Assembly (NCBI GenBank): GCA_030524745.1
Contig: JAUNGC010000011.1
Span: forward strand, 1 to 64,000
From: Eubacteriales bacterium
GTDB lineage: Bacteria; Bacillota; Clostridia; Lachnospirales; Lachnospiraceae
Direction of reading: 5' to 3'
DNA length: 64,000 nt
The notes under the pieces: generated by a model
What the model was told of the DNA's origin: nothing
Databases searched by the model: none
What the model saw: the letters and a program-made list of their open reading frames with translations, nothing else
Program-made: the position numbers and the translations under genes
Shown here: one piece after another, positions 17,796 to 61,031 of the stretch
Layout of the letters: every line of letters starts with the position of its first letter
Position numbering within the stretch: the first letter of the stretch is position 1

Positions 17796-17905
17796 TTGCC
17801 GCGCCGGGGGGGCGGACCGCAGGCCCATTGCAGCGCGCCGGGCCTGGCATCCATCTTCGCCATTCCAATATCCGAAGCGGGAAATTCCACACATTTGAAA
17901 GGTGG
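17796..17905. repeat. Half copy of the long-hairpin element (copy C)
   Basis: Contains GCCATTCCAATATCCGAAGC followed by GGGAAATTCC (17859-17888), matching the left core box of the full copies at 28998-29367 and 60747-61031. Upstream, CAGGCCC (17819-17825) pairs with GGGCCTG (17840-17846). The complementary right core box is missing, so this is a truncated or solo arm. Confidence 0.65.
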
Positions 17906-17916
17906 GAGTCAACCCG

Positions 17917-17952
17917 TTGAATTTCAGGATAACATTTGCTATAATTTATCCT
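17917..17952 (+). promoter_or_regulatory. Promoter with palindrome across the -10, upstream of the unknown membrane protein
   Basis: TTGAAT (17917-17922), 17-bp spacer, TATAAT (17940-17945). AGGATAA (17926-17932) and TTATCCT (17946-17952) form a perfect inverted repeat flanking the -10, a good position for an operator. Confidence 0.6.
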
Positions 17953-18068
17953 GTCTCTTTGTCGCGTAAGGAAACAGCGTGGTTCAGGCTTCTGCGGATA
18001 TTCTGCGTGCGACAGAGGAAGCGGACAAATTTACGATAGGAAACTATCTGCTTATGGAGGATGGGAGA

Positions 18069-19079
18069 ATGGGAATGAATGAATTTCCGACGTTAAAGCT
18101 ACCGCCGAAGGATTACAGCATGGAGGATGCTTTTTTTGACAAGCGGGAGAAGGGCAGTTTTGCCAACAGGCTCTGTACGGTGATGAAAGAATACAGCGAG
18201 AGCAATAAGGCGTCGTATTCCTATAAGGAAAGCGACGGAATACGCGAGAAAAAGGAAAAAATATGTTCCGCTGTTAACAGGCACTACAATGATATGCGCT
18301 GCCGGATCGATCAGGAAATGCAGGCGTATCTGCTGGAACATGACGGGAATGTCGATTCCTGGGACGATTCGACCGACGACCTCATTTCCAAGGCTGAGGA
18401 CTGTTTGTTTGTATTTGATTATTTCGGAGAGGATTACAAAATTTTGCATTCCGGTGAAGCAAAGAGAAAATCTTCCCGGCTGGTATACCGGAATCAATAC
18501 CAGTTTCCGGGCACGGAGCCGTACAATTCTGCGGAGAGGAGAAGACGGGTACTCGAAACGGACGTCCGAAAGGCAAGAGAGGCAGGCGACGGCGGATTTG
18601 TCCGGCTTCTGTGCCTGGCGGGCATGATTTATTTGATGGTTGGGATGCTCGCGATCCTGGGCGATCTGCTGTTTCATCTGGGGAGCGTCACGATCGATTT
18701 GCTCTATGAGAAAAACTCCACCCTTGGCATTCTTGTGAGTATTCCGTATACCGTGTATTCTCTGATCGTGGGTATATTCGGCGAATTCGGCAAGATGGAA
18801 ATTTTCTTTATCGTGATCCTCCTGGGGGCGTGCCTGTTTGGATTTCTCTATCTTCTCGACTATTTCAAAACGTGCAGCAAAAATGCCAAAGCCCTGAAAA
18901 AAGCCAAAAAGGCTCTGGATTCCCTGATAAAAAGCGACGAATACAGGCAGACCGTGTCAGAGAACGACAGACTTCGCAGACAGAATGAAGAACTGGCGGA
19001 ACAATGGCACCGGGCGTGGTATGCCTGGGTCTGCAGCATAAAAAAATCGGCTGCGGAGGCAACTGATAACGATGTATAA
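18069..19079 (+). CDS. Membrane protein of unknown function with C-terminal coiled coil
   Basis: 336 residues. Residues about 1-170 are soluble and charged; about 180-290 hold three hydrophobic segments (GMIYLMVGMLAILGDLLF, ILVSIPYTVYSLIVGI and IFFIVILLGACLFGFLYLL); the last 70 residues are a lysine/alanine-rich coiled coil. GGAGG lies 8 nt before ATG 18069; an in-frame GTG at 17979 with a weaker AAGGAAA site would give 366 residues and cannot be excluded. I do not recognise the family. It sits alone behind its own promoter. Confidence 0.65.
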   Translation: MGMNEFPTLKLPPKDYSMEDAFFDKREKGSFANRLCTVMKEYSESNKASYSYKESDGIREKKEKICSAVNRHYNDMRCRIDQEMQAYLLEHDGNVDSWDDSTDDLISKAEDCLFVFDYFGEDYKILHSGEAKRKSSRLVYRNQYQFPGTEPYNSAERRRRVLETDVRKAREAGDGGFVRLLCLAGMIYLMVGMLAILGDLLFHLGSVTIDLLYEKNSTLGILVSIPYTVYSLIVGIFGEFGKMEIFFIVILLGACLFGFLYLLDYFKTCSKNAKALKKAKKALDSLIKSDEYRQTVSENDRLRRQNEELAEQWHRAWYAWVCSIKKSAAEATDNDV

Positions 19080-19209
19080 ATACATAAGGGATTTGATCTG
19101 GGCGGGATAAGAGGGATGGCCAGATAGATGCACCGGATACTGAAACAAGTTGGTTCAAAGGAAACCTGCAGTTGGCTTGTCACTGATATCAATGTCAATT
19201 AAAAACAAT

Positions 19210-19255
19210 TACCCTCAGTGTACAAGGGCGTGTGTCCCCTTGTACACTGAGGGTA
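19210..19255. repeat. Dispersed palindrome, full copy 2
   Basis: TACCCTCAGTGTACAAGGG, loop CGTGTGTC, and the exact complement (19237-19255): a perfect 19-bp stem with an 8-nt loop. Same arms as 9269-9330. Confidence 0.8.
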
Positions 19256-19279
19256 AGGAAAACGGATGAGGAACGGAAA

Positions 19280-19708
19280 ATGGGAAATTGGAGTGCGGAA
19301 GCGGAAAAGATTTTGGTGGAGCGTTTCGGAAAGGACAGTATCATTGCGCTGGCGACAGCAGAGGACGGACTGCCGCATGTCCGCAGCGTGGACGGATTTT
19401 ATGAGGACGGAGCTTTTTATGTGATTACATATGCGCTTTCCAACAAGATGAAGCAGATAGCGAAAAATCCGGAGGTGGCGATCTGCGGAGAATGGTTTAG
19501 CGCCCATGGAAAAGGGATTGATCTGGGCTGGTTTGGAAAGAATGAAAACCGGGACATGGCGCAGAAGCTGAGAAAAGCCTTCGCGCTTTGGATCGATAAC
19601 GGACACAATAATTTTGAGGATGAAAATACCCGTATCCTTTGCATACGCCTGACCGACGGCGTTCTCTACTCCAACGGAACGCGCTATGACATCGACTTTA
19701 CCATATAG
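19280..19708 (+). CDS. PNPOx-fold (flavin-binding split-barrel) protein
   Basis: 142 residues. Resembles the pyridoxamine 5'-phosphate oxidase-like group: SIIALATAEDGLPHVRSVDGFYEDGAFYVIT forms the first barrel strands, SNKMKQIAKNPEVAICGEWF the next. These small proteins bind FMN or F420-like cofactors; the reaction is not predictable. ATG 19280 is chosen since GAGGAACGGAAA precedes it; the longer frame from 19232 begins within the palindrome. Its ribosome site lies only about 10 nt beyond that palindrome. Confidence 0.8.
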   Translation: MGNWSAEAEKILVERFGKDSIIALATAEDGLPHVRSVDGFYEDGAFYVITYALSNKMKQIAKNPEVAICGEWFSAHGKGIDLGWFGKNENRDMAQKLRKAFALWIDNGHNNFEDENTRILCIRLTDGVLYSNGTRYDIDFTI

Positions 19709-19735
19709 AAAAGGATGAAAGACAGACTATTTTTC

Positions 19736-19994
19736 CGGGCGCAGCGTCCTGAAAGCAAGGCGAGTGCATCATTTGTCCGAGGGCCTGTGATTACCTCGCC
19801 CCAAGCGGCGCCTGTGTCATTTCCCAGACCGTTAAAAACGCGTCAGCACTTGGGCTGCGTTCTGTGCAGCCCTATGTACTGCTACGCGTTTTTCGAGCGA
19901 AAGCGTGTCTGGAAATGACACAGGCGCCGCTTGGGGCGGGCAACCACAGCCCCCGGGCAAACGACGCCCCACCTTGTTTTCAGGACACTGCGCC
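19736..19994. repeat. 259-bp quasi-palindrome (element D)
   Basis: The whole gap between the PNPOx gene and the GT52 gene folds on itself. 19736-19823 is complementary to 19910-19994 with scattered mismatches; 19796-19823 and 19910-19937 are a perfect 28-bp match. The centre holds a GGGCTGC/GCAGCCC hairpin and AAAAACGCG/CGCGTTTTT arms. No gene fits. Sequence differs from copies A-C. Confidence 0.75.
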
Positions 19995-20024
19995 CTTGCA
20001 TTGTTGTATGGGTGTGTGGTAAAA
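19995..20024 (+). promoter_or_regulatory. Probable promoter of the GT52-flippase run
   Basis: TTGCAT (19995-20000), 18-bp spacer, TAAAAT (20019-20024), starting directly at the edge of the quasi-palindrome. Confidence 0.5.
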
Positions 20025-20080
20025 TATAACGATATTGCAGGAGCCGCCATGCGGCACCCTGAAAACGTAGAGAGGTTCAA

Positions 20081-21151
20081 ATGAAGGATCGGATTTATGT
20101 CTGCCATACTTATTATCATGTATATGTGACCTGCTTAAAGGAACTGACCTTACCGAAGTCCATGCAGGGCGGGGCGACGCTGGTTTTGAGCACCATGTCC
20201 AACGACTTCGGCAATTTGAAGGAGCGGGCGCAGAACAGCGGACTGTTTGAAGAAGTGCTGATGTTTGAAGAAAAAGAAGAACATTTTTTCCCGGAACTGC
20301 AAAAGTATCACATGGATTACGGCAATCTGATCGCCAATCTGTTTTCCCGGATCCGGTATACCAAGCTGTATGGAAAGCTGCAGGAGCCTTATGTTCCGGT
20401 GGATTTTAAGAAATATAAGGATATTTACGTGTTCTGTGATTCTGATCCGATCGGCTATTATCTGAATTATAAGCGAATTAAATATCATGCGGTGGAGGAC
20501 GGGCTGGACTGTATCTGTTACTATGACACGGCCAGATACGACAACCGGGGACATTTTAAGCTGAAAGCGTTTCTGGCAAGGCGGAATCTGATTTTTATTC
20601 AGAACGGATACAGTAAATACTGCGTCGATATGGAAGTGAACAATACCGCGATTTTGAAATATCCCTGCTCCAAATATATTGAACAGCCCCGCGAGGTGCT
20701 GGTGCGGCGGCTGACCCAGGCGGACAAAAATGTGATCCTGCGGGTATTTTTGGAGGATATGGAGGGACTTCTGGATCAGCTTGCGACGGGAGAGCATCAC
20801 GAGAAAAAGGTGCTGGTGCTGACGGAGCCGCTGTGCAGCCCTGATGTGCGGGAGCGGCTTTTTCGGGATCTGGTGGAACAATATGGGAAGGACGCGCTGG
20901 TGCTCATCAAGCCCCATCCCAGGGATGTGCTGGATTATGAAAAGATTTTCCCGCAGCATATTGTTCTGGACGGAAAGTTTCCGATGGAGATTCTGAACTT
21001 TATCGAGGGGCTGGAATTTGAAAAGGTAGTTTCCGTGTATACGGTGCCGGATTCCATTCATTTCGCAAAAGAAAAGATTTTCCTTGGCGACGATTTCATG
21101 GATCAGTATGAAAAGCCGGAGGAACACCGGTTCAACGAGCAGATTTATTAA
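20081..21151 (+). CDS. GT52-like (sialyltransferase-type) glycosyltransferase
   Basis: 356 residues. The N-terminus CHTYYHVYVT, the IKPHPRD motif near 285 and the YTVPDSIHFAKEK segment near 328 fit bacterial sialyltransferase-type GT-B enzymes (GT52 and relatives). Such enzymes use CMP-nonulosonic acids. As the window makes CMP-pseudaminic acid, this is the best candidate to transfer it (inference). AGAGG precedes the ATG. No membrane segment. The exact family should be confirmed by a profile search. Confidence 0.7.
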   Translation: MKDRIYVCHTYYHVYVTCLKELTLPKSMQGGATLVLSTMSNDFGNLKERAQNSGLFEEVLMFEEKEEHFFPELQKYHMDYGNLIANLFSRIRYTKLYGKLQEPYVPVDFKKYKDIYVFCDSDPIGYYLNYKRIKYHAVEDGLDCICYYDTARYDNRGHFKLKAFLARRNLIFIQNGYSKYCVDMEVNNTAILKYPCSKYIEQPREVLVRRLTQADKNVILRVFLEDMEGLLDQLATGEHHEKKVLVLTEPLCSPDVRERLFRDLVEQYGKDALVLIKPHPRDVLDYEKIFPQHIVLDGKFPMEILNFIEGLEFEKVVSVYTVPDSIHFAKEKIFLGDDFMDQYEKPEEHRFNEQIY

Positions 21152-21223
21152 AGTGCAAAAACAGGCCGGAAGGCGGAAGCTTTCGGCGGGTGAAAATGCT
21201 GCAGAGAGGAATTTTGACGGATT

Positions 21224-22975
21224 ATGAAGAAAATCTGGAAAAAAATGATGGTTCTGATGAACCGGAAGCAGAAGCTGAAAATGGTGCAGATCGTAATCAT
21301 GATGATTATCGGGGCGGTGCTGGAAACGGCGAGCATCGGTCTGGTGGTTCCGGCGATTCAGCTGATACTGGATCCCAAATGCGTGGAGGGAGACGGCATT
21401 GTTGCCGGAATCTACAGAGGAATGCATTTTTCCAGCCCGATGCAGTTTACGGTGGTCATTTTGTGCCTGATCGTCCTGGGCTTTGTGCTCAAAAATGTGT
21501 TTTTGTATTTCCAGAATGTGATACAGCTCAGATTTGTTTATACGAATCAGTTTGAAACCTCCCAGCGCATGATGATTAATTTCATGAAGCGCCCCTATGA
21601 ATATTACCTGAATGCGGACACGTCCGTTATTCAGCGCATGATTACGTCTGACGTCAACAATATGTACGGGCTGGTGCTGGCCTGCCTGCAGCTGATGAGC
21701 GAAGTGATTATTTTCGTGCTGCTGGCCGTGACGCTGACGACGCTGGCGCCTCAGATGATTCTGACGGTGGCGGGGCTGCTGATTGTGACGCTTCTGATAA
21801 TCAAGTGCGTATTGAAGCCGATCATGTACCGGGCGGGCATTGAAAATCAGGACTATTACAGCGGCCTGTATAAGTGGATTGAAGAGTCCGTCATGGGGAT
21901 CAAGGAAATCAAGATCGCCAATAAGGAAAACTATTTTATTGTGGAATACGGCAAATGCGGACAGGGCTATGTCAACGCCGTGCAGAAATATAACATCTAT
22001 AACGCGACGCCGCGTCTGCTGATCGAGACGGTATGTATGGCGGGCCTGATTTTATACCTGGTGGTGATGATACTGACGGGGGAAGACGTCAGCAGTATGG
22101 CGGCCCAGTTGGGCGCGTTCGGCGTGGCGGCGATGCGTCTTCTGCCTTCCGCCAACCGAATCAACAATTATCTGACCCAGATATCTTATTTTGAGCCGTT
22201 CTTCATGGGCGTGTCCGACAATCTGCAGGAAGAGATCCATGATGAAAATATGGTCTATGATATGGAGGCATACCGCAGGAAGAAAAATGTGGAAAAGCTT
22301 CCGGTGCAGGGAAAAATCGTTCTGGACGATATTGTTTATAAATATCCCAACACCGACGTGCTGATTTTTGACCATGCGCACATGGAGATTCCGGTAGGCG
22401 CTTCCGTGGGAATTGTGGGGACAAGCGGCGCGGGAAAAACCACGATTGTGGATATCATGCTGGGACTTCTGGAAATCCAGCAGGGACATATCCTGGCGGA
22501 CGGCGTGGAAGTGCGGGAGCATTATGAGGGCTGGCTGAAAAATATCGGTTATATTCCCCAGACGATTTTCATGATCGACTCCACGATCCGCAAAAATGTG
22601 GCGTTCGGCTATGCGGATGAAGATATCGAGGATGAAAAGGTATGGGAAGCGCTCAAAAAGGCGCGGCTGGATGAGTTTGTGCGGGGACTGCCCGAAGGCC
22701 TGGATACAGGGATCGGGGAAAGAGGAATCCGTCTGTCCGGCGGGCAGCGTCAGAGAATCGGTATTGCGAGAGCGCTGTTTGAGGATCCGGAAGTGCTGGT
22801 GTTAGACGAGGCCACAAGCGCGCTGGATAACGAGACGGAAGGCGCGATCATGGAGTCCATCAACAGCCTGCACGGTCACAAGACGCTGGTGATTATCGCC
22901 CATCGTCTGCAGACCATTGAAAAATGCGATATGGTGTATCGCGTGGAAAACGGGGAGATCACAAGAGAACGCTGA
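21224..22975 (+). CDS. PglK-like ABC flippase for lipid-linked oligosaccharide
   Basis: 583 residues, half-transporter acting as homodimer. Six membrane helices at about 15-310, with the long PglK-type helices (GAVLETASIGLVVPAIQLIL is typical); ATPase with Walker A GTSGAGKTT (about 398), YIPQ Q-loop, signature LSGGQRQRIGIARA and Walker B VLVLDEATSALD. PglK relatives flip undecaprenyl-diphosphate oligosaccharides across the membrane. The PglF/PglE/PglC-like genes further right support the same role here. I see no Wzx in the window, so this may be the only flippase. Confidence 0.8.
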   Translation: MKKIWKKMMVLMNRKQKLKMVQIVIMMIIGAVLETASIGLVVPAIQLILDPKCVEGDGIVAGIYRGMHFSSPMQFTVVILCLIVLGFVLKNVFLYFQNVIQLRFVYTNQFETSQRMMINFMKRPYEYYLNADTSVIQRMITSDVNNMYGLVLACLQLMSEVIIFVLLAVTLTTLAPQMILTVAGLLIVTLLIIKCVLKPIMYRAGIENQDYYSGLYKWIEESVMGIKEIKIANKENYFIVEYGKCGQGYVNAVQKYNIYNATPRLLIETVCMAGLILYLVVMILTGEDVSSMAAQLGAFGVAAMRLLPSANRINNYLTQISYFEPFFMGVSDNLQEEIHDENMVYDMEAYRRKKNVEKLPVQGKIVLDDIVYKYPNTDVLIFDHAHMEIPVGASVGIVGTSGAGKTTIVDIMLGLLEIQQGHILADGVEVREHYEGWLKNIGYIPQTIFMIDSTIRKNVAFGYADEDIEDEKVWEALKKARLDEFVRGLPEGLDTGIGERGIRLSGGQRQRIGIARALFEDPEVLVLDEATSALDNETEGAIMESINSLHGHKTLVIIAHRLQTIEKCDMVYRVENGEITRER

Positions 22976-23043
22976 ACCTGCCGCGTACAGGCGCAGATAT
23001 GGCGGATTGCCGGAAACAGGGAACGACAGGGAAAGGAGCAGGG

Positions 23044-24147
23044 ATGAGCAAAAGCGGGCGGCAGGCAAATTTTGAATTACTGCGGATTGTTGCCATGTTC
23101 ATGGTGGTGGTCATGCACTATCTTGCGAACACCATCGAACCTGCAGCGGACGGCGCGTCCCGGATATCGGGTCCGGATGTGGTGTATGTGGTTCTGGAAT
23201 CGCTCTGTATCGTGGCGGTCAACGTTTATGTGCTCATCAGCGGCTACTTTCTTTCTGAAACGGCGTTTTCCTGGAAGCGTCCGGTGCGCGTGATCGCGCA
23301 GACGCTGTTTTACACGGTGTTGATTCCGCTTATACTGGCGGTTTTCGGGGCGCTTTCCTTTTCGGAGGTTTTCAATATTTATCATATCTGGAACTGCATT
23401 TTTCCAGTGCAGTCCGGTCATTACTGGTTTGTGACCGCCTATGTGGTGCTGATGCTGTTTACGCCGGTCTTGAATGCGGCCGTGCAGAAACTGGAAAAAA
23501 GGCAGTTTTTGCAGGTGCTGGCGGCGCTGCTTTTGTTTTTCTGCATCGGGAAAACGATCAGCCCCCTGCAGTTTGCCACGGACCGGTACGGCTACGATTT
23601 CGGCTGGTTTATGGTGCTCTATCTGATCGGCGGCTATATCCGCAGATACGGGAGCGGATTTTTGAAAAATGCCGGCAGGGGTTGGGCGGTCTATTTGGGT
23701 TCCGCAGCGGGGATTGCCGCTGTAGAGTTTTTGCTCATGTTTCTTTGCCAGAAAGGAGTCGGTCTGGTTTATTACAGGAGCGTACCCTTTCATTATAATT
23801 TCCTGTTCTGTCTGACCGGGGCGCTGGGATTGTTTTCCGCCTTTTTGCATATGGAGATGAAAGAAGGGAAAGCGGCCGGGATGATCCGGTTTATCAGTCC
23901 GGCGGTGTTCGGCGTTTATCTGATTCATGAACAGACGGACGTGGCGGGCCGGTGGTTTGGCTGGGTGAACGGGCTGACCGGAAAAATCGGCGCGGGTTTT
24001 GCGCAGCAGATGGCGGACGGAAGAGCCGTAACGCCGGTTGGACGGTATCTGCTGCTTCTGGCGCTGCAGACGTTGATCGTGTTTATAGTCTGTATTGTGA
24101 TAGATAAAGTGCGGGGATTTTTCGTTTCCCGGATCAAAAAATTGTAA
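23044..24147 (+). CDS. Acyltransferase family 3 (sugar O-acetyltransferase) membrane protein
   Basis: 367 residues with about ten membrane helices. The start RQANFELLRIVAMFMVVVMHYLANT carries the R-x10-H pattern of family-3 acyltransferases, which O-acetylate surface polysaccharides. AAAGGAG lies 6 nt upstream of ATG 23044; the longer frame from 22924 overlaps the flippase gene and is rejected. Confidence 0.85.
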   Translation: MSKSGRQANFELLRIVAMFMVVVMHYLANTIEPAADGASRISGPDVVYVVLESLCIVAVNVYVLISGYFLSETAFSWKRPVRVIAQTLFYTVLIPLILAVFGALSFSEVFNIYHIWNCIFPVQSGHYWFVTAYVVLMLFTPVLNAAVQKLEKRQFLQVLAALLLFFCIGKTISPLQFATDRYGYDFGWFMVLYLIGGYIRRYGSGFLKNAGRGWAVYLGSAAGIAAVEFLLMFLCQKGVGLVYYRSVPFHYNFLFCLTGALGLFSAFLHMEMKEGKAAGMIRFISPAVFGVYLIHEQTDVAGRWFGWVNGLTGKIGAGFAQQMADGRAVTPVGRYLLLLALQTLIVFIVCIVIDKVRGFFVSRIKKL

Positions 24148-24177
24148 TGCCGTTTACGCGGCGGGATGAGAGGAAAA

Positions 24178-25896: not shown

Positions 25897-25947
25897 TTCA
25901 AATGAGCAGCCTGAGGCGTGGAAAGCTTCAGAAAGTGAGGATGTAAA

Positions 25948-27114
25948 ATGAGCGAGAACAAATTACCTTTTACCGGACATGAGAAAATCAGATTTAACGT
26001 GCCGCCCTGTACCGGAAAAGAATTTGAATATATCCGTCAGGCGGTGCAGAATCAGAAAATCTGCGGAGACGGAGAGTTTACAAAAAAGGCGAGCCGGTGG
26101 TTTGAAGAGCGGACCGGAGCGGCGAAGTGCCTGATGACCACGTCCTGCACCCATGCGACGGAACTGGCGGCGCTTTTGTGCGATATCAAACCCGGCGATG
26201 AGGTCATCATGCCTTCCTTCACTTTCGTTTCCACGGCGGACGCCTTTGTGCTGCGGGGAGCGACTCCGGTGTTCGTGGATATCCGTCCGGATACGCTCAA
26301 CATCGACGAGACCCTGATCGAAGCGGCGATTACCGAAAAAACCCGGGCCATCGTGCCGGTTCATTATGCGGGAGTGGCCTGCGAAATGGATACGATTATG
26401 GATATCGCAAAGCGGCATCATTTACTGGTGATCGAAGACGCGGCGCAGGGCGTGATGGCTTCCTACAAAGGAAAAGCGCTGGGAACCATCGGCGATTTCG
26501 GCTGTTACAGTTTTCATGAGACGAAAAACTACAGCATGGGCGAGGGCGGCGCGCTTTTGATTCAGGACCCCGCTTATATTGAACGGGCGGAGATTTTCCG
26601 GGAAAAGGGAACCGACCGCAGCAAATATTTCCGGGGGCAGGTGGATAAGTACCGCTGGCAGGACTTCGGTTCCAGCTATCTGCCCAGCGAACTGAATGTG
26701 GCCTATCTGTATGCCCAGCTGGAAATGGCGGAGGAAATCAACGAATACCGCCTGGCGCGCTGGGAGGAATACCGGGAACTGCTCACCCCCCTGGCGGAAG
26801 AAGGGAAAATCGAACTTCCCTGTGTGCCCGAAGGATGCGTGCATAATGCGCATATGTTCTATATTAAGACGGCGGATGAGGCGGAGCGCGCGGCGCTGAT
26901 CGATTTTCTGAAGGCGGACGATATTCTGGCGGTTTATCATTATGTGCCGCTGCATTCCGCGCCGGCGGGCTTAAAGTACGGCAGATTTTCGGGAGAGGAT
27001 GTGTATACCACAAAAGAAAGCGAGCGCCTGCTGCGCCTGCCCATGTACTATGGACTTAAGGCGGAGGAAGTGGCGCTGGTGGCCGGGAAGGTAAAAGAAT
27101 TTTATGGCAGATAA
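25948..27114 (+). CDS. wecE: dTDP-4-amino-4,6-dideoxygalactose transaminase (WecE/RffA type)
   Basis: 388 residues, PLP fold-type I sugar aminotransferase. Converts a dTDP-4-keto-6-deoxy-hexose to the 4-amino sugar using glutamate. Long stretches match WecE: FNVPP, KICGDGEFTKK, PGDEVIMPSFTFVSTADAFV, VPVHYAGVACEMDTI, VIEDAAQGVM, and SFHETKNYSMGEGG with the PLP lysine near 193; the end TTKESERLLRLP also fits. No dTDP-glucose synthase or dehydratase is in the window, so the substrate must come from elsewhere. A GNAT gene and a formyltransferase in the locus could modify the new amine. Confidence 0.88.
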   Translation: MSENKLPFTGHEKIRFNVPPCTGKEFEYIRQAVQNQKICGDGEFTKKASRWFEERTGAAKCLMTTSCTHATELAALLCDIKPGDEVIMPSFTFVSTADAFVLRGATPVFVDIRPDTLNIDETLIEAAITEKTRAIVPVHYAGVACEMDTIMDIAKRHHLLVIEDAAQGVMASYKGKALGTIGDFGCYSFHETKNYSMGEGGALLIQDPAYIERAEIFREKGTDRSKYFRGQVDKYRWQDFGSSYLPSELNVAYLYAQLEMAEEINEYRLARWEEYRELLTPLAEEGKIELPCVPEGCVHNAHMFYIKTADEAERAALIDFLKADDILAVYHYVPLHSAPAGLKYGRFSGEDVYTTKESERLLRLPMYYGLKAEEVALVAGKVKEFYGR

Positions 27115-28975
27115 CAGGTTTGGACGGCGCTCTTTTTCGGGGGGCCGTCTTTTGGAAAAATGCAGGAAGCTTTCAGACAGGCAGCGAAGCGGTCTGTTGT
27201 GGGCTTTGGGGATGACCGCATTGCTGTTTGCGGCGATTGCGGTACGGTTCGACTTTTATTATGACTTAAACGACGATGTGCTGATAAAAGATATTCTGTC
27301 AGGCGTTTATTCCGGAACGCCGGACGGGCATACGATGCAGCTTCTGTATCCGCTGGGATTTCTTTTGAGCCTGTTGTACCGGGGCCTTTCCATTCCGGTG
27401 TTCGGCGTTTTTCTGGTGCTATGTCAGTTCGGAAGCATTTTTTTGATCGGATACCGGACTGCCCTGCGGTGTGAAAAATGGCAGGAGAAGGCGCTTTTTC
27501 TGGCGGCGGAAGGCTTCTTCTGGTTTGCGGCCTTTGGGTGGCATCTGGTATTTATACAGTATACGGTCACGGCGGGAATGCTGGCGGGGGCGGCGATTTT
27601 CTGGTTTCTGACGTCGGACGGACAGGGACAGGGCGCGGCGGGTTTTATGAAGAAGAATCTGCCCGCGCTGGTATTGTACTGGACGGCTTTTTGCCTGCGG
27701 TCGGAAATGGCCCTTTTGCTGCTGCCGCTGGCGGGCGTGGCGGGCCTTTGCAAATGGGGGCGGGAAAGTAAGGTTTTTACAAAGGAAAATGTGTGTAAAT
27801 ATCCGGCGGTCTTTGGCGCGCTGGCGCTGGGACTTGTTCTCTGCTTGGGGTTGGACAATCTTGCATACAGCGCGGCCGACTGGACGGCGTTCCGGCAGTT
27901 TTTTGACGAGCGGACGGAGCTGTATGATTACCAGAAGGATTTTATAGACAACTATGAGGACAATGCGGAAGCTTATGAAGCGCTGGGCGTGACAAAAGCG
28001 CAGCATGCGCTGCTGGCCAATTATAACTTCGGCGCAGATGATTCCATAGATGAAAGTCTGTTTGCAAAGCTGAAAGAGGCGGCGGTATTGCGCCCGGAAT
28101 CCGGCGGCTTTTTCAAAAAGAGCCTGGCGGAAGGGCTTTGGAGCCTGCGCGTGATACACTGGCTGGGGAGTCAGGATTTCCCGTACAATTTCGTCTTTCT
28201 CATCTGCGGCGTGCTGGCGCTTTCGCTGTGGTTTGGAAAAGGGCGGAAATATCTGCTCTGGCAGGTGCCGCTGTGTTTTGCGGCGGGAGCGGCGCTCTGG
28301 ATGTTTCTCCTGCTTCGGGACCGTCTGGCGGACCGGGTGTTTCATCCGCTGTATCTGGGGCAGATTTTGGTTTTTGCCGGACTTCTGTTGTTAGAGAGGG
28401 AGAACGACCGGAGCGGAAAGGAATCAAAGGAGGAAGACAGCCCGGCGAAAATGGAAAAATTGCCGGTTGCGCCCGGGCATTTGACGGCGGGGGCGGCGGC
28501 TGTCTTGGTGCTTTGCGCCTGCCTGATCCAGACCCCGAAAACCTGGGCTTTCGTTTCGGCGGAATATGCCCGCAGAGAAGAGGTCAACCGGACCTGGGAG
28601 ACGGTGATGGATTACTGCAGCGCCCATCCGGAGCGGCTGTATCTGGAAGACGTCTATTCCACGGTGGATTACAGCGAAAAAATTACGGTGGACCGGAACA
28701 AGCCGTTTAATTATGACATTTTGGGCGGCTGGCTGGTAAAAAGTCCACTGACGAAGGAAAAACTGTCTGCCTTTGGGTTCTCCACCATGGGAGAAGCGGT
28801 GGCGGCGGGCGGCAACGTCAGCCTGCTCGATGAAGAGGGCAGCGGTATGGAATGGCTGACCGATTATTTTGCGGAGAAAGAAATACCGGTCAGAGTGGTG
28901 AAGACCGGGACGATTGCGGACGGTGTGGAAGTGTATCAGGTGGTGCCAAAAGACAGCGGGGAGCGTCTGGAGTAA
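27104..28975 (+). CDS. Large polytopic membrane protein, GT-C-like, unknown
   Basis: 623 residues with about ten to twelve membrane helices. After helix 1 comes DFYYDLNDDVLIKDILSG, an acidic loop as in GT-C enzymes. The C-terminal 130 residues are outside the membrane. The start overlaps the aminotransferase gene by 11 nt, so it is translationally coupled. I do not recognise the family; a transferase or ligase in glycan assembly is only an inference. The next 550 nt hold no gene but a long-hairpin element. Confidence 0.65.
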   Translation: MADNRFGRRSFSGGRLLEKCRKLSDRQRSGLLWALGMTALLFAAIAVRFDFYYDLNDDVLIKDILSGVYSGTPDGHTMQLLYPLGFLLSLLYRGLSIPVFGVFLVLCQFGSIFLIGYRTALRCEKWQEKALFLAAEGFFWFAAFGWHLVFIQYTVTAGMLAGAAIFWFLTSDGQGQGAAGFMKKNLPALVLYWTAFCLRSEMALLLLPLAGVAGLCKWGRESKVFTKENVCKYPAVFGALALGLVLCLGLDNLAYSAADWTAFRQFFDERTELYDYQKDFIDNYEDNAEAYEALGVTKAQHALLANYNFGADDSIDESLFAKLKEAAVLRPESGGFFKKSLAEGLWSLRVIHWLGSQDFPYNFVFLICGVLALSLWFGKGRKYLLWQVPLCFAAGAALWMFLLLRDRLADRVFHPLYLGQILVFAGLLLLERENDRSGKESKEEDSPAKMEKLPVAPGHLTAGAAAVLVLCACLIQTPKTWAFVSAEYARREEVNRTWETVMDYCSAHPERLYLEDVYSTVDYSEKITVDRNKPFNYDILGGWLVKSPLTKEKLSAFGFSTMGEAVAAGGNVSLLDEEGSGMEWLTDYFAEKEIPVRVVKTGTIADGVEVYQVVPKDSGERLE

Positions 28976-28997
28976 GGCGAGGCCTGTCCGTTCTCAT

Positions 28998-29367
28998 CTG
29001 CCTGTTGTTTTGGCTCTGCCCCGGCTCCGTCTGTCCGGCCCGCCGCCCGCCCTGCCCTGTTCTCCGGGGGCGCGCAGGCATTTTCGCCATTCCGATATCC
29101 GAAACGGGAAATTCCGGCCGGAGTTTCGCCCCGTTCCAAACTGCCGCATGACATGCAAACTCGCAGCGAAATGAGGCTTCTGTCAGAATCCTCATTTCGC
29201 TGCTCAAACAGTGCATGCCATGCGGCAGGAACGTTTCTCAACTCCGGGGAATTTCACCGTTCGGATATCAGTCATGGTCTCAAATGTCTGCGCGCCCCCG
29301 GAGAACAGGGCAGGGCGGGCGGCGGGCCGGACAGGCGGAGCCGGGGCAGAGCCGATGCGCCAGGCAG
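28998..29367 (+). repeat. Long-hairpin element, full copy A
   Basis: 29012-29080 pairs with 29285-29353 almost perfectly over about 70 bp; the mismatches I find are G-U wobbles if the plus strand is the RNA. An inner core pairs the left box GCCATTCCGATATCCGAAAC (29087-29106) with the right box around 29248-29275, and the tip is a perfect 14-bp stem (29163-29176 with 29190-29203). The outer ends continue imperfectly to 28998 and 29367. No gene, no start with a ribosome site. Confidence 0.8.
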
Positions 29368-29468
29368 GAGGGAACGGGCTCAGAGGCAGGATAGGGTGAA
29401 CAGGGAAGTAATGGTTTGGCCAAGGCAGGGCAATTTGCAAAAATGCAGCGGTAGAAGACAGGCGGGGC

Positions 29469-29497
29469 TTGTTCAATGTTTTATGGAATAGTATAAT
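29469..29497 (+). promoter_or_regulatory. Promoter of the HD-hydrolase gene
   Basis: TTGTTC (29469-29474), 17-bp spacer, TATAAT (29492-29497). Confidence 0.6.
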
Positions 29498-49305: not shown

Positions 49306-49385
49306 GAATATGACGGGCGTTTATTTCCGGCCGGAAAAAATTTTGAAAAATCATGCCGCAGCGGATCGGGAAGGGAGAATAAATA

Positions 49386-50327: not shown

Positions 50328-50376
50328 AGGCAGGGACGGCAGACAGAGGAAAAAGATTGGAAGGAGCGGTGCCGGA

Positions 50377-53416: not shown

Positions 53417-53483
53417 AGAATCATTTCACATCGGTCATATCCCAACGAATGCAAATCGCGGACAGGGCGCGATTTCGTGAGGA

Positions 53484-53509
53484 TTGAACATAAATTTATT
53501 ACTGTTCAA
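53484..53509 (+). promoter_or_regulatory. Inverted repeat in the glnA leader
   Basis: TTGAACA / TGTTCAA, perfect 7-bp arms with a 12-nt A/T-rich spacer, ending 5 nt before the AAAGGGG ribosome site of glnA. Could be an operator or an RNA stem masking the ribosome site. Confidence 0.4.
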
Positions 53510-53526
53510 AGAAAGGGGATAAGAAA

Positions 53527-54957: not shown

Positions 54958-55007
54958 GAAAGCTTGCCTGCAAATGGCAGATGTGGTAAACTAAATCGTT
55001 AGCAGGG

Positions 55008-55041
55008 TGCCGGGCAGAAGCCTAATCGCTTCTGCCCGGCA
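55008..55041 (+). terminator. Strong hairpin after glnA
   Basis: Perfect 14-bp stem TGCCGGGCAGAAGC / GCTTCTGCCCGGCA with a 6-nt loop. Only a broken T-rich tail (TCTGATCT) follows, so termination may be partial. Confidence 0.55.
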
Positions 55042-55103
55042 TCTGATCTATGACAATAGAAAGCATCTGCGTATGCTTTTCGCTGTTGAAAAGGAGAACG
55101 GGA

Positions 55104-56204
55104 ATGCAGAAAATTGCCTTTCATTTGAACAGCCTGCAGCAGGGCGGTGCGGAGCGTGTTGTGACCAATCTCGCCAATCAGTTTGTACAGGCGGGTTATG
55201 AGGTTTTGATCGCAACGGAATGGTACGGAGAGAAAGAGTTTGTTCCCGACGAAAGGGTGAAGCGGGTACATGTGGGGCTTCTTGAAAAAGATGAAAAGAA
55301 GTCCAGAATTTCCAAAATCCTGCTGCGCATCCGGTATTTAAGAAAATTCATCAAAAAAGAGCGGCCGGATGTGCTGATCGCCTTCACGCATACGGTGAAT
55401 TACCGGGCGCTGATGGCGGGCATGGGAACCGGCGTGCCTGTGGTGATTTCGGTGCGCACCGACCCGGTGGGGCATTATGATAAGAGGGCGGATAAGATAC
55501 AGATTCCCCTGCTTTTTCCCAGGGCGGCGGGGTGCGTGTTCCAGACCGAGGGCGCAAAGGCCTTTTTTGCCCCTTATCTGCAGGACAATTCCAGAATTAT
55601 TTTAAATCCGCTCCATCCCAAATATATCGGCACTCCTGTGCCCAAAAAGAGAACGAAAGCTGTGGTGCAGTCCGGACGTCTGGTGGACTTTAAAAATCAG
55701 CCCATGCTGATCAAAGCTTTCATAGAGGTCCACAAAAAGCATCCCGACTACACTTTAAAAATATACGGACCTGATTCCAAAGACGGAACGAAGGAAATTC
55801 TGGAAGGGATCATTAAGGAAAATCATGCGGAGGATTATGTGAAGCTGATGGGGGGCAGCGACAGTCTGGAAAAGGAACTGGCGGACGCTGCCGTCTATGC
55901 GTTTTCCTCCGACTGGGAGGGCCTTCCCAACGCGCTGATGGAGGCGATGGCATTAGGGCTGCCCATTGTGGCGACGGACTGCCCCTGCGGCGGACCCCGC
56001 ACGCTGATCAGAGACGGCGTGGACGGGCTGCTGATTCCCATTAAAAATCAGGAGGCGCTGGAAGAGGGCATCAACCGGCTGATTGAAGACCCTGTGCTTG
56101 CCGAAAGGCTGGGGACGGAAGCGAGAAAAATCGCCGAAAGAGCCAACGGACAGGCTGTTTTTGAACAGTGGCGGGATTTCCTGGAAGAATGCTGCCAAAG
56201 ATGA
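55104..56204 (+). CDS. GT4 glycosyltransferase
   Basis: 366 residues, GT-B. KIAFHLNSLQQGGAERVVTNLANQFV at the start and FSSDWEGLPNALMEAMALGLPIVATDCPCGGPRTLI in the donor site. Similar in layout to the GT4 at 59605 (CPCGGP loop shared). AAGGAG lies 7 nt before ATG 55104; the in-frame ATG 55050 would overlap the hairpin tail. Confidence 0.88.
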   Translation: MQKIAFHLNSLQQGGAERVVTNLANQFVQAGYEVLIATEWYGEKEFVPDERVKRVHVGLLEKDEKKSRISKILLRIRYLRKFIKKERPDVLIAFTHTVNYRALMAGMGTGVPVVISVRTDPVGHYDKRADKIQIPLLFPRAAGCVFQTEGAKAFFAPYLQDNSRIILNPLHPKYIGTPVPKKRTKAVVQSGRLVDFKNQPMLIKAFIEVHKKHPDYTLKIYGPDSKDGTKEILEGIIKENHAEDYVKLMGGSDSLEKELADAAVYAFSSDWEGLPNALMEAMALGLPIVATDCPCGGPRTLIRDGVDGLLIPIKNQEALEEGINRLIEDPVLAERLGTEARKIAERANGQAVFEQWRDFLEECCQR

Positions 56205-56306
56205 GCGGACAGGATATCCGTATGGCAGCAGGACGGCCGTCATTTCGCGGAAACGCATGAGGTTGAAGAAAAACAGGCCGCGGCGCGCGGCAGAATGGAG
56301 AAAATT

Positions 56307-57095
56307 ATGTTTTCTTACGATGATTATAAAGAAATAATCCGCATTATCCAGTCCACCGGACGGGCGATGGGCTACGAGGAAGCGCTGAGACGGGATGAAT
56401 TTGTCATCATGCGTCACGATGTGGAATACAGCGTGGAGCGGGCCTACGAGCTTTCCAAAGTGGAAAGCAGCATGGATTTTTGTTCCACCTGGTTTTTTCA
56501 GTGGACCAACAATTCCTACAATATTCTTTCCAGATGCCATCAGGACATGATCCGGGACATGAAGGAAAGGGGACATCACATCGGCCTGCATTTTGCATTG
56601 AACGGTCTGACCGATATGCGGGAAGTGCGCAGACAGATCGCAAAGGAAATGCGCATTCTGTCCGATATGTTCGGCTATGAGATCACCCAGTTTTCCGTGC
56701 ACAGGCCTTCGGCGGCGGTGCTGGCGGAAAACATCAAACTCCCCAATATTCTGAACGCCTATCAGGACGATTTCTTTACCTTCGCGCCGAACATTACGCC
56801 CGATACGCCGCTGAAAGTGAAATACATGTCCGACGCGAATCATATCTGGCGCTACGGCTATCCGGATGAAGAAAATATCACGGGCTTTGCCAAAGTGCAG
56901 ATTCTGACCCATCCTTTTGCGTGGAGCGAAAAAGGCTACGACAACCGGGATAATTACGCGGCTCTGGTACAGGAAAAATATCAGGAAATGATTGAAAGCA
57001 TCGATAATGAATGTAAGGACTTCTGCGAGTATAAAGAGGAGTTTTTGGGAGCGAAGCTGGTTGCCCCGAATGAGGCGGACCGGCGGAAGAACTGA
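56307..57095 (+). CDS. Polysaccharide deacetylase-fold protein
   Basis: 262 residues. NodB-like features: EFVIMRHDVEYSVERAY (metal Asp), RGHHIGLHFAL (metal His pair) and FSVHRPSAAVL. No signal peptide. The ATG at 56307 is preferred because GGAG lies 6 nt upstream; the ATG at 56295 lacks a site. Not the usual secreted CE4 enzyme; may deacetylate a lipid-linked intermediate inside the cell. Confidence 0.7.
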   Translation: MFSYDDYKEIIRIIQSTGRAMGYEEALRRDEFVIMRHDVEYSVERAYELSKVESSMDFCSTWFFQWTNNSYNILSRCHQDMIRDMKERGHHIGLHFALNGLTDMREVRRQIAKEMRILSDMFGYEITQFSVHRPSAAVLAENIKLPNILNAYQDDFFTFAPNITPDTPLKVKYMSDANHIWRYGYPDEENITGFAKVQILTHPFAWSEKGYDNRDNYAALVQEKYQEMIESIDNECKDFCEYKEEFLGAKLVAPNEADRRKN

Positions 57096-57173
57096 CCGCT
57101 GTTGTTTAAGCCTGCGCCTCGCGCTTGCCGCGCAGCGTGAAGAAACCATGATTCGGAAAGGAGCCGACGGCCT

Positions 57174-59108
57174 ATGTGTGGAATTTGCGGATTTCTTACC
57201 AAAAGAGAAATATCCCCGGCGCAGTTAAAGCGCATGAATGATACGATGTATCATCGCGGGCCGGACGATCACGGCGAAGAAATTTATCCCTGGAAGGGCG
57301 GATATTCGCTGGGACTTGCCCAGCGCAGGCTTTCCATTCTGGATCTGTCGCCCCTGGGGCATCAGCCGATGCACGCGCCTGACCGGAGCGTCAGCGTTGT
57401 GTACAACGGGGAAATTTATAACTTTCGGGAACTCAAAAAAGAACTTTCGGACTATCCATTTAAGTCCAATTGTGATACCGAAGTGATTCTTGCGGCCTAT
57501 CTGAAATGGGGAGTTTCCTGCGTGGAACGTTTTAACGGCATGTTTGCGATTGCGCTGGCGGACAGAAGGCAGGAACGGTTTTACCTGATCCGGGACAGGA
57601 TCGGAAAAAAGCCGCTTTATTACTGGGCGGAAGAAGGGCATCTGGTTTTTGCGTCGGAGTTAAAGCCGATTCTGGCCTGTCCGGATTTCTCCAAAACGAT
57701 CCGGAAGGACGTGTTGTCCCGCTATTTATATCAGCAATACATCAATGCGCCGGATACTGTTTTTGAAAAGGTGTACAAGCTGGAGCCGGGCGCGGTGCTG
57801 ACCTGGGAGAACGGGCGCATTTTCACCCGGAAATATTGGGATATCAAAAATGTTTACCATAAAATGAGCGAAAACCCCGTGACGGATTACGGAGAAGCAA
57901 AGGAGCAATTAAAGCGCCTGCTGCAAAAATCCGTGGCATCCCGCATGATCGCGGACGTAGAGTTGGGAACTTTTTTGAGCGGCGGTTACGATTCCTCCCT
58001 GATGACGGCAATCGCGCAGGAACAGTCGGAAAAACCGGTCAAAACCTTTTCCATCGGTTTTCATGAAAAACGCTATAATGAAGCGGGCTATGCAAAGCGG
58101 GTGGCCGACTGCCTGGGAACCGATCATACGGAGGCCTATATCTCGGAAAAAGAGATGTTTGAACTGGTGGAAAGTATCCCCCGTTATTTTGACGAACCCA
58201 TGGCGGACAGTTCCCAGATTCCTACCATGCTGGTGAGCGCTCTTGCCAGAAAAAAGGTGACGGTTGCCCTGTCCGGGGACGGCGGAGACGAATTCTTCTG
58301 CGGCTATAACGTCTATGAAAAGGTGGCGCAGGCACAAAAGCTGGATTGGACGGGCGGCATGCTGAACGGCCTCTTAACGCTTCCCGGTCTGAAACAGATC
58401 CATGCTGCGGACAGGCTGCCCTTTAAGGTAAGGGTTATCGCCCAGAACCGGAATAAGGAGAGCAAAACCCAGTTCGGCGCGGGCAATTATGTGCTGCGGG
58501 CACAGAAAATGGTGGCGCAAAAGGAAGGGAATCTGCCCTGCTGTTATGAAACGGAAAGCAGTTATGGGGTGGAGAACTGGCAGGTGCGCCGCATGCTTCT
58601 GGACATGGATACCTATCTGCCCGGCGATATTTTGTGCAAGGTGGACCGGGCTTCCATGAAATATTCGCTGGAATCCCGCTGTCCGATTCTGGATACGGAT
58701 GTGATGGAGTATTCCTTCCGCATCCCGCATGCTTTTAAATTTTATCAGGGAGAAAAAAAGCATATTCTGAAAGATATCGCTTATGAATATATTCCGAAGG
58801 AACTGCTGGACAGACCCAAGGTGGGATTTGGCGTTCCGCTGGATCAGTGGCTGAGAGGGCCGCTCAAAGAACAGCTTCTTTCTTACAGCGACAGCGGTTT
58901 TTTGAAAGAGCAGGGGCTGTTCGACGCGGAGTATGTGCGGGAAATGATCCGCGCTTATCTGCTGACCGGAGACGGCGGAGCGGGAAGTGGAGCAAACTAC
59001 TCCGGCCTTGTCTGGTCTTTCTTCGTCTTCCAGCAGTGGTATGCGGAAGTCTTTGCGCCGACGGGGCGCGCGCCCATGTCCTCGCCGGATGCGCTTGCGC
59101 TCGGATAA
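57174..59108 (+). CDS. asnB: Asparagine synthase (glutamine-hydrolysing)
   Basis: 644 residues. N-terminal Ntn glutaminase with catalytic Cys2 (MCGICGF), then an ATP pyrophosphatase domain with LSGGYDSSLMTAIA (about 267-280). In glycan loci such enzymes may amidate uronic acids; this fits the GalNAcA-type pathway here, yet a plain asparagine synthetase cannot be excluded. The C-terminal domain keeps CKVDRASMKYSLESRCPILD. GGAG precedes the ATG. Confidence 0.9.
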   Translation: MCGICGFLTKREISPAQLKRMNDTMYHRGPDDHGEEIYPWKGGYSLGLAQRRLSILDLSPLGHQPMHAPDRSVSVVYNGEIYNFRELKKELSDYPFKSNCDTEVILAAYLKWGVSCVERFNGMFAIALADRRQERFYLIRDRIGKKPLYYWAEEGHLVFASELKPILACPDFSKTIRKDVLSRYLYQQYINAPDTVFEKVYKLEPGAVLTWENGRIFTRKYWDIKNVYHKMSENPVTDYGEAKEQLKRLLQKSVASRMIADVELGTFLSGGYDSSLMTAIAQEQSEKPVKTFSIGFHEKRYNEAGYAKRVADCLGTDHTEAYISEKEMFELVESIPRYFDEPMADSSQIPTMLVSALARKKVTVALSGDGGDEFFCGYNVYEKVAQAQKLDWTGGMLNGLLTLPGLKQIHAADRLPFKVRVIAQNRNKESKTQFGAGNYVLRAQKMVAQKEGNLPCCYETESSYGVENWQVRRMLLDMDTYLPGDILCKVDRASMKYSLESRCPILDTDVMEYSFRIPHAFKFYQGEKKHILKDIAYEYIPKELLDRPKVGFGVPLDQWLRGPLKEQLLSYSDSGFLKEQGLFDAEYVREMIRAYLLTGDGGAGSGANYSGLVWSFFVFQQWYAEVFAPTGRAPMSSPDALALG

Positions 59109-59147
59109 CGATGATTAGCTGAAAGTTTGACAGGAGAGGAAACAGAG

Positions 59148-59528
59148 ATGACAGATAAGTCGATAGAATTTGACTTTGGGAAGGACTTTCTTTTTTCCCT
59201 GAAGACTATAGTTGTCACCGAAGAGGATATCAAAGATCTCAAAAGCGGTAATTTGAAAGAGCCCAAGGATAAATACCGCGGATGCGATGTAAAGGTGTTC
59301 ACGGACGGAAAATATCCAAGGGTCCTTCGGCTCAGTAAAGATATTCCTGTTTTCGATTCAGGTGACAGAGAATATGATTCCTGGTATGATCTTTACCTGG
59401 TGCAGGAGAAAAACGGAAATATTTACGCGGTCTACTGTACCGGCGGGTATCGCATCGCCAAAATCAAAGGTTATGCAAAGGTATATAAATATCCGGAAGA
59501 TCTGAGGCAATACTTCATAGAAACCTGA
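59148..59528 (+). CDS. Small protein of unknown function (126 aa)
   Basis: 126 residues, charged, beta-rich by eye, no signal or membrane segment. Notable stretches: LKEPKDKYRGCDVKVFTDGKYPRVLRLSKD and WYDLYLVQEKNGNIYAVYCTGGYRIAKI. AGGAGAGG precedes ATG 59148. I do not recognise the family. Confidence 0.6.
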   Translation: MTDKSIEFDFGKDFLFSLKTIVVTEEDIKDLKSGNLKEPKDKYRGCDVKVFTDGKYPRVLRLSKDIPVFDSGDREYDSWYDLYLVQEKNGNIYAVYCTGGYRIAKIKGYAKVYKYPEDLRQYFIET

Positions 59529-59604
59529 AACAGAAGCGAATCAGGACGTATCAAAAACAAGGATCGGAGTGAGGAAGACCGGTTGATACAGGGTGGAAAT
59601 GCGT

Positions 59605-60717
59605 ATGGAAAATGAGAAAAGACATATTGCTTTTTATATTGGCTCTTTGAAAAAAGGGGGCGCTGAGCGGGTTTTTGTGAATCTGGCAGATTATTTCCGG
59701 GGACGCGGGTACCGGGTGACGATGGTAACCCAGTATCGGAAGGAGAATGAGTATGAACTGCCGGAGGGCGTAGATCGTGTGATTTCGGATATTGCGAAGG
59801 AAGAAGAGGGCGGCAGGATTGTAAATGTGTTTCGCCGTTACCGGAAGCTGCGCCGTATTTTTAAAGAACTTCAGGCTGATGTGGTGCTGTCCACCATAGG
59901 AAAGAATAATTTTATGGCGCTTTTGGCCAATGCCTTTTTGCCGACGAAAGTGGTGGTTTCTGTGGTGGCGGAGCCGACGGAGGAGTATCCGAACCGGAGC
60001 ATGCGGCTGCTGGCAAAGACGTTGTTTTATTTTGCGGACGGCATCGTGATGCAGACCACGGACGCGGTGGCTTTTTTTGGGAAGCGTCTGCAGAAGAAGT
60101 GTGTGATTCTGAAAAATTCTTTAAATCCTGTATTTGTGCGGCCGCGCTTCGCGGGAGAACGGCGGCAGGACATTGTGGCGGTGGGACGTGTGGATGAGAA
60201 CAAAAACCACCGCATGGCGATCCGGGCTTTTGCGCAGATTGCGGAGCGCTTCCCGAAGAGCCGCCTGATTATTTACGGGGAAGGGGAACTGCGGCAGAAA
60301 CTGCTGGCGGAAATAGAGGAAATGGGGCTTACAGGCAGGATTCTCATGCCGGGGGCCGTGACCGATGTGCCGGACCGGATCGAGAAAGCGTATGCGTTTG
60401 TGCTGACTTCTGATACGGAAGGCATGCCCAATACGCTGATTGAAGCGATGGCTTTGGGCCTGGCCTGTGTTTCCACGGATTGTCCCTGCGGCGGGCCAAA
60501 GGATCTGATTGCGGACGGTCAGAACGGTTTTCTGGTGCCGGTGAAGGATGATAAAATGCTGGCAGAGCGGCTGGCCGATTTGCTGGAAAATCCGCAGAAG
60601 GTGGAAAAAATGGGCCAAGCGGCTGCAAAGCTTCAGGAAGAGTACCGCCCGGATAAAGTGAACGCGGAGTGGGAAGCTTACTTTACCGGAATCGTCGGGA
60701 AAAAGTGGGGGGGATAA
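59605..60717 (+). CDS. GT4 glycosyltransferase
   Basis: 370 residues, GT-B. HIAFYIGSLKKGGAERVFVNLADYF at the start, VAVGRVDENKNHRMAIRAF and LTSDTEGMPNTLIEAMALGLACVSTDCPCGGPKDLI in the second half. Likely paralogue of the GT4 at 55104. ATG 59605 is used since GGTGG lies 8 nt upstream; upstream ATG/GTG codons are too close to it. A long-hairpin element follows. Confidence 0.87.
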   Translation: MENEKRHIAFYIGSLKKGGAERVFVNLADYFRGRGYRVTMVTQYRKENEYELPEGVDRVISDIAKEEEGGRIVNVFRRYRKLRRIFKELQADVVLSTIGKNNFMALLANAFLPTKVVVSVVAEPTEEYPNRSMRLLAKTLFYFADGIVMQTTDAVAFFGKRLQKKCVILKNSLNPVFVRPRFAGERRQDIVAVGRVDENKNHRMAIRAFAQIAERFPKSRLIIYGEGELRQKLLAEIEEMGLTGRILMPGAVTDVPDRIEKAYAFVLTSDTEGMPNTLIEAMALGLACVSTDCPCGGPKDLIADGQNGFLVPVKDDKMLAERLADLLENPQKVEKMGQAAAKLQEEYRPDKVNAEWEAYFTGIVGKKWGG

Positions 60718-60746
60718 GCATCTTAACCCGCCGCCGCATTCCCGCT

Positions 60747-61031
60747 GTGCCGCGCCCGCTCCTGCCGCCCGGCCCTCTGCTCTGGGGCACAGGTATTTTT
60801 GCCATTCCGATATTCAAAATGGGAAATTCCAACCAAAGCGCCGGCTCGTTCCGGACTGCCGGCAGATGCGTAAACTCGCTGCGGATCTTCGATCCGCCGC
60901 TCAGACAGTACGCATCTGCTGGCAGGAACGCCCCGGCGCTTTGGGGAATTTCACCATTTTAAATATAAGTCATGGCTGCAAATACCTGTGCCCCAGAGCA
61001 GAGGGCCGGGCGGCAGGAGCGGGCGCGGCAC
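60747..61031 (+). repeat. Long-hairpin element, full copy B
   Basis: 60747-60798 and 60980-61031 are perfectly complementary over 52 bp. The core pairs the left box GCCATTCCGATATTCAAAAT (60801-60820) with the right box near 60944-60975, then CCAAAGCGCCGG/CCGGCGCTTTGG, GCAGATGCG/CGCATCTGC and a GCGGATC/GATCCGC tip. Same architecture as copy A. Most bases that differ between the copies have a matching change on the other arm. Confidence 0.8.

Follow-up and report, generated by a model that had tools for sequence, protein, structure and literature searches.

Giant palindromic hairpins sharing a tip motif: a dispersed family in a Lachnospiraceae genome and the case for a mobile DNA element

The window considered here is a stretch of 64,000 nucleotides from a genome of the Lachnospiraceae (Eubacteriales bacterium, assembly GCA_030524745.1, contig JAUNGC010000011.1, positions 1 to 64,000). 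It carries two complete giant hairpins, copies A and B, and a half copy, C, of a real, dispersed family of often giant palindromes that has a tip motif found across phyla and has probably not been described. Copy A (28988-29377, plus strand) has arms at 28988-29083 and 29282-29377. It contains a conserved core running from TTTTCGCCATTCCGATATCC to GATATCAGTCATGGTCTCAAAT (29081-29285, plus strand) and a tip motif made up of AAACTCGC, a variable apical stem-loop and GCTCAAACAGTGC (29157-29214, plus strand). A gap of 12 nt separates it from the stop codon of a co-oriented open reading frame (ORF) at 27104-28975. Copy B (60747-61031, plus strand) has perfect outer arms of 52 bp, and its tip motif consists of AAACTCGC, an apical stem-loop and GCTCAGACAGTAC (60872-60911, plus strand). 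Half copy C (17852-17888, plus strand) comprises the left half of the core only and lies 3' of an ORF ending at 17792.

An earlier note on this DNA had described A and B as single long hairpins, and folding bears this out. Copy A (28998-29367) has a folding energy of -313 kcal/mol (z = -27.5; 0 of 100 shuffles as good) and copy B (60747-61031) one of -236 kcal/mol (z = -21.9; 0 of 200 shuffles as good). The inverted arms measure 96 nt at 90% identity in copy A and 52 nt at 100% in copy B. The existence of half copy C was likewise confirmed, as a 37-nt BLAST match to copy A with 92% identity in its own genome. Copy B, together with small palindromes, is enclosed by a further 20-bp stem with two mismatches (60721-60740 / 61178-61197, plus strand; given without a chance estimate) that starts 3 nt past the stop codon ending at 60717. 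It is probably a stem-loop of the host within which elements have become nested.

The family was shown to be dispersed through its own genome (G000; 63 contigs, 3.57 Mb). With copy A as the query, BLAST returned 45 matches, several per copy, from a scoring of 40 of 53 candidates. The genome has at least 28 complete hairpins, 25 that were extracted and three (L041, L043 and L071) met afterwards. This census rests on BLAST and pattern searches, and the genes around the copies come from our own ORF calling. In length the hairpins span about 285-580 nt and their cores 187-235 nt. The core boxes and asymmetric loops that the earlier note had seen in A and B recur in the 25 aligned copies, where invariant boxes lie on either side of the asymmetric loops: CCATTCCGATAT stands opposite ATAT-AGTCATGG, CCAAACTG opposite CAGGAA, and, at the tip, AAACTC opposite TCARACA (consensus sequences, with a few variants). 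The core shows strong covariation: RNAalifold predicted 78 consensus pairs for this alignment, and at least one double change was found in 50 of them. The same note had stated that wherever A and B differ, both arms differ; this is true of many positions and not of every one. Beyond the core, the arms continue for a further ~50-200 nt in sequence that is locus-specific yet mostly complementary. In 5 of the 25 copies (L014, L018, L020, L021 and L022) TTTATCCTG lies close to the outer ends, possibly as the terminal signature of one sub-family. A scan of the window against Rfam gave no match at the gathering score. One copy, L017, gave two Rfam matches at E<=1, both far under their gathering scores.

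The tip motif extends well beyond this genome. Among 397 genomes of the same family, the own genome counted, 22 have the pattern AAACTCGC-loop-GCTCARACAGTGC, while a control in which it was read backward gave 2 hand-counted hits. In one genome (G027) the motif occurs 32 times. A sequence search scoring at most 13 candidates per genome missed the copies of three same-genus genomes (G002, G003 and G007) that the pattern search found. Among the folded loci listed for other genomes of the family, most are hairpins of ~100-490 nt with unrelated stems, and a few are shorter or interrupted by contig ends. A stricter form of the motif was found in at least 119 stretches of the GTDB collection, for 80 of which titles were available. 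Some genomes are represented repeatedly, many records are metagenome-assembled, and individual taxon labels may be wrong. The matches listed include, in addition to Lachnospiraceae, records of Anaerococcus, Peptoniphilus, Tissierellia, Gastranaerophilales, Desulfobulbaceae, other Deltaproteobacteria and Nitrospirota, as well as Rheinheimera, one Burkholderiales record and one Helicobacteraceae record. The spacer is 3 nt long in 52 of the 120 GTDB matches read, against a chance expectation of ~0.2 for an even base composition, and in 119 a C is able to pair with the G of GTGC; these matches are non-independent owing to repeated genomes, and some of the others may have arisen by chance, ~7 such matches being expected over all spacers. 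The family is larger than the earlier note had stated. The note's claim of an unfamiliar family with conserved boxes and bulges is supported by these matches together with the own-genome copies, the aligned boxes and the double changes of the core.

Several single observations belong with this census. One viral contig bears the tip motif, and one query each for plasmid and for phage cargo gave no match. In Rheinheimera sp. SA_1 (L286:97-1240), an ORF of 194 amino acids lies between two oppositely oriented motif hairpins.

In this genus, the hairpin starts at most 20 nt past the stop codon of a co-oriented upstream gene in 12 of 25 copies in G000, 11 of 21 in G003 and 7 of 14 in G007. For the most part, the motif strand and the preceding gene run in the same direction: arrangements scored '++' outnumber those scored '--' by 14 to 2 in G000 (p 0.004), 11 to 2 in G003 (p 0.02) and 7 to 3 in G007 (p 0.34). 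No such bias was seen in G027 and G375 (3 '++' and 6 '--' of 13), and G227 has 3 to 2 of 7. Any one of three causes could produce this bias in position: insertion into terminators, selection against the damage done by read-through, or a role as RNA.

The last of these possibilities leads to the strongest rival explanation, in which the hairpin is a structured RNA in the 3' untranslated region of the upstream gene, its tip and bulges binding a protein or protecting the mRNA end and its pairing selected at the RNA level. In its favor are the start of about half of the genus copies within 20 nt past the stop of a co-oriented gene, the excess of '++' arrangements, the conserved asymmetric loops of the core and the double changes in 50 of 78 pairs. 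Is it the RNA that keeps the two arms alike? Pairing selected in RNA would tolerate opposed G and U and would not tolerate opposed A and C, so that counting the two, with all mismatches scored alike, tells RNA selection from copying between arms at the DNA level. The arms of the own genome were found to hold 3800 Watson-Crick, 105 G-T, 166 A-C and 282 other positions (a tally that takes in one G004 hairpin, L033, and, through its regular expression, leaves out L002 and L019). Those of other genomes hold 2394 Watson-Crick, 64 G-T, 70 A-C and 246 other positions. Recent one-arm changes between sister species gave 59 G-U against 78 A-C. As an RNA control, the acceptor and T stems of 29 distinct tRNAs of the own genome gave 32 G-U against 2 A-C; their register was guessed by best pairing, and 32 positions that are neither paired, G-U nor A-C are probably in the wrong register. 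The tRNAs were taken as control because terminator hairpins held too few mismatches (12 G-U, 8 A-C). Since G-U is not in excess over A-C in the arms, their likeness is not maintained through the plus-strand RNA; the slight excess of A-C is too small to implicate the opposite strand. The structured RNA that the earlier note had offered as one option is therefore disfavored. Its remark that in copy A every outer mismatch is a wobble is approximately true (8 wobbles, 3 other mismatches and 1 gap), but family-wide the trend is reversed.

A comparison of sister species suggests what does keep the arms alike. The same-genus genomes G002, G003 and G007 hold 6, 21 and 14 copies of related type, with flanks that are mostly about 81-98% identical. 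In 15 orthologous comparisons over 13 sites (pairs and same or inverted labels set by hand, 350 gapped columns set aside), the ungapped columns showed 163 one-arm changes and 36 matched two-arm changes, of which ~3 would be expected by coincidence. The double changes come in bursts: two pairs account for 12 and 8 of the 36 (dispersion p 5e-8), and L193/L203 has 8 of them inside 13 columns. They are also rich in transversions (15 of 36, against 26 of 163 single changes; p 0.001). Bursts and transversion richness fit the copying of tracts from arm to arm better than stepwise compensation. One-arm changes outnumber double changes; copying is therefore occasional and mismatches are tolerated. Furthermore, 3 of the 15 comparisons, all of draft assemblies, have the element in opposite orientation while its flanks correspond. 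In L054/L055, an inner 313 bp matches on the plus strand (96%) and the surroundings on the minus strand (90%). Clustered two-arm changes and in-place inversions thus favor the template-switch correction of quasi-palindromes that the earlier note had raised as a non-selective cause. That note had also set arm-to-arm conversion lacking conserved bulges and boxes against its own proposal; neither half of this applies alone, because conversion occurs yet the boxes are conserved.

Burstiness, transversion richness and in-place inversion also argue against the structured RNA, as do the missing excess of G-U beside the 32 to 2 of the tRNAs and the absence of orientation bias in G027 and G375. This explanation is accordingly considered unlikely.

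Presence and absence of the element at orthologous sites was found among the sister genomes (terminators and empty-site junctions were judged by eye). What G007 has between convergent genes at the L054 site is no more than GCCGGGAAAAATAAACCCG...CGGGCGGGTTTATTTTTCCCGGC, which by its sequence looks like a bidirectional terminator. The two halves of this stem, with one base changed, form the outermost 23 bp of the arms in G002. G005, more distant at the gene concerned (74%), has a terminator-like stem directly behind the same gene. At L193:1387-1643, G002 and G003 have the element and G007 a bare CGCACG-A-CGTGCG. At L203:6809-7201, G003 lacks both the element and its arms. The site of copy A is not comparable because, in the relatives read, other genes follow the orthologous upstream gene, and the counterpart of L212 in G003 falls at contig ends. 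In G002 (L258, G002:C144), a different palindrome lies within a 32-bp perfect host stem adjoining the site of the L190 giant hairpin of G003. The nesting of one palindrome in another was thus met repeatedly, though in a small number of cases. These sister comparisons, including sites with and without the element, favor the MITE-like mobile element among the options originally listed.

The family is most likely a REP/MITE-like mobile DNA element rather than a structured RNA, and the balance tips modestly towards A and B being copies of a non-autonomous mobile DNA palindrome. The observations on which this reading rests are the dispersal of the copies, their presence and absence, the conserved tip and loops, the bursts of double changes and the in-place inversions in draft genomes. 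One strand would extrude as a DNA hairpin, probably during replication, and some protein would recognize the tip and its bulges. This protein would insert the hairpin into loops of stem-loops that the host already has, for example terminators that follow genes. Thereafter the arms would be kept alike by template switching and by recombination with each other, which would sometimes flip the element.

Several points weigh against this reading. No transposase was found beside the copies, nor any telling recurrent gene family in the 119 GTDB loci. Y1 transposase genes were not found in the carriers G003 (21 copies), G134, G403, G166 and G096, and G000 has only a fragment. No constant termini were found among the copies, the outer arms being locus-specific. 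No target-site duplication was established at the three empty sites, of which two are palindromic and the third has an overlap of at most 3 bp. Deletion of the center of a palindrome would leave remnants like the first two empty sites, so that the polarity of these events is not settled; moreover, half an arm is retained in G007 at the L189 site. Draft assemblies could mis-orient inverted repeats and hence produce inverted orthologues. The 14 to 2 co-orientation suggests that transcription matters. Finally, for several records of Desulfobulbaceae, Deltaproteobacteria and Nitrospirales the same simple extension method found the motif to cap stems no longer than ~36-42 nt, and the term "giant" is therefore not valid everywhere.

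Could a known enzyme move these hairpins? In a second, rather improbable explanation, they are REP/REPIN-type repeats mobilized in trans by a RAYT, a Y1 tyrosine transposase. The habits are alike, both being palindromic, often behind genes and built of a conserved tag and a variable stem. Giant hairpins in some loci stand as neighboring inverted pairs (L097 and L099; likewise L239 and L234), in opposite orientation and ~100 bases apart or less. A RAYT-like Y1 transposase gene was found ~2.7 kb from a hairpin copy in L232 (G027:C46) and in L233 (G375:C3). However, Y1 transposase genes are present in 15 of the 30 genomes tested and their presence does not track the carriers, so that a RAYT or other Y1 enzyme as the mobilizer is not supported. 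When the 119 loci were searched by blastp with seven seeds, four of them RAYT-like (one seed, L216, being a wrong-frame ORF), no RAYT-like ORF was found with those four. No GTAG foot was noticed, although no systematic search for one was made, and the tag sits at the tip; some low-GC copies carry GCTGCGTC within an arm. When the ORFs of these loci were compared all against all, the largest cluster spanned 13 loci, and we recognize its members as ABC transporters. The next clusters, of 6 and 4 loci, are ORFs in repeats of related Deltaproteobacteria, and the rest of the 14 clusters listed cover at most 4 loci each.

The weakest explanation, that terminators or insulators built by the host reached giant size through successive rounds of template switching and are immobile as units, draws on the position of about half of the genus copies directly behind a stop codon and on the terminator-like outermost arms at one site, but paralogues at unrelated loci have the whole core and tip in common, presence and absence occurs at orthologous sites and a T tract directly follows the stem in some copies only (by eye, unscored), which makes it very doubtful.

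The persistence of such long palindromes raises the matter of SbcD, whose complex attacks them. An SbcD match was found in 28 of 30 genomes searched, above the cut-off in 25 that include G000, G003, G007, G027 and G375. Carriers G096 and G006 gave no match, and G134 gave a sub-threshold one only. Loss of SbcCD, judged on SbcD alone, is not a general cause of palindrome tolerance, as several carriers encode SbcD.

A wider proposal, offered tentatively and with less confidence than the mobility of A and B, is that of a super-family of tagged palindromes. Its members would have the tip C-AAACTCGC / GCTCARACAGTGC across phyla and spread as single-stranded DNA hairpins into hairpin loops, with nested growth to 300-500 nt, and would persist even beside SbcD. 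A recognizer would be needed because a non-coding motif is kept across phyla on otherwise unconserved hairpin tips; to our knowledge, none is known for this motif.

Long palindromes have mostly been studied as engineered ones. The sister-species series provides arm-to-arm homogenization and in-place inversion in natural long palindromes, including those of genomes that encode SbcD. It also counsels caution, in that "compensatory changes" within long hairpins need not signal RNA selection.

Several known systems resemble the giant hairpins in part. Integron attC sites are long imperfect palindromes of weak sequence conservation whose extra-helical bases are conserved and are recognized in the single-stranded hairpin. 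Boxes of the attC type were not noticed in the giant hairpins, and no search was aimed at an integrase or cassettes. Rickettsia palindromic elements are about 100-150 bp long and often lie inside genes, whereas the giant hairpin copies examined are intergenic and longer. The Rickettsia elements, named in the available text of PMC3733652, are like the giant hairpins in being palindromic repeats with variable stems, and they are mobile. The REP, BIME and REPIN repeats (GTAG) and the CGTC-tagged repeats are palindromes of 20-40 bp (PMC3733652, as available). Like the giant hairpins, they are dispersed, mostly 3' of coding regions and present in several phyla, with an unpaired conserved tag and variable stems, and the CGTC-tagged class also lacks a dedicated transposase (PMC3733652, available text). 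The giant hairpins differ from REP in length, being ~285-580 nt in the own genome and mostly ~100-550 nt elsewhere in the family, and carry the conserved tag at the tip rather than at one end. The main text of PMC3733652, as far as it was available, does not mention "Clostridi" or "Firmicutes". MITEs, ERIC and Correia elements are non-coding, mostly intergenic, hairpin-forming and mobile, traits that the giant hairpins share or, in the case of mobility, probably share. Unlike MITEs, the giant hairpins have no constant terminal inverted repeat; only the center is constant and the outer arms vary by locus. A survey of 40 genomes including Clostridium perfringens and C. tetani described 92 families of stem-loop repeats, many of them intergenic (PMC2267715, available part). 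Its accessible main text does not mention "Lachnospir", and the comparison of its families with the giant hairpins is one of description. Literature searches on such hairpins and palindromes in these bacteria, on terminator insertion and on the tip sequence, judged by titles and the openings of abstracts, brought up no description of the family; the closest work is that on the GTAG- and CGTC-tagged repeats (PMC3733652).

The window also holds palindromes of a smaller kind. At least three occurrences of one repeat (GTGTGTCCCCTTGTACACTGAGGGTA and variants) were seen, at 9302-9344, 12315-12357 and 19227-19269, with one as an inverted pair at 9269-9330. Small palindromes stand in a row 3' of copy B (61058-61175), and one of these (GTAACAGTTCGGCGTAGCTGAACTGTTAC) starts again beside copy L009.

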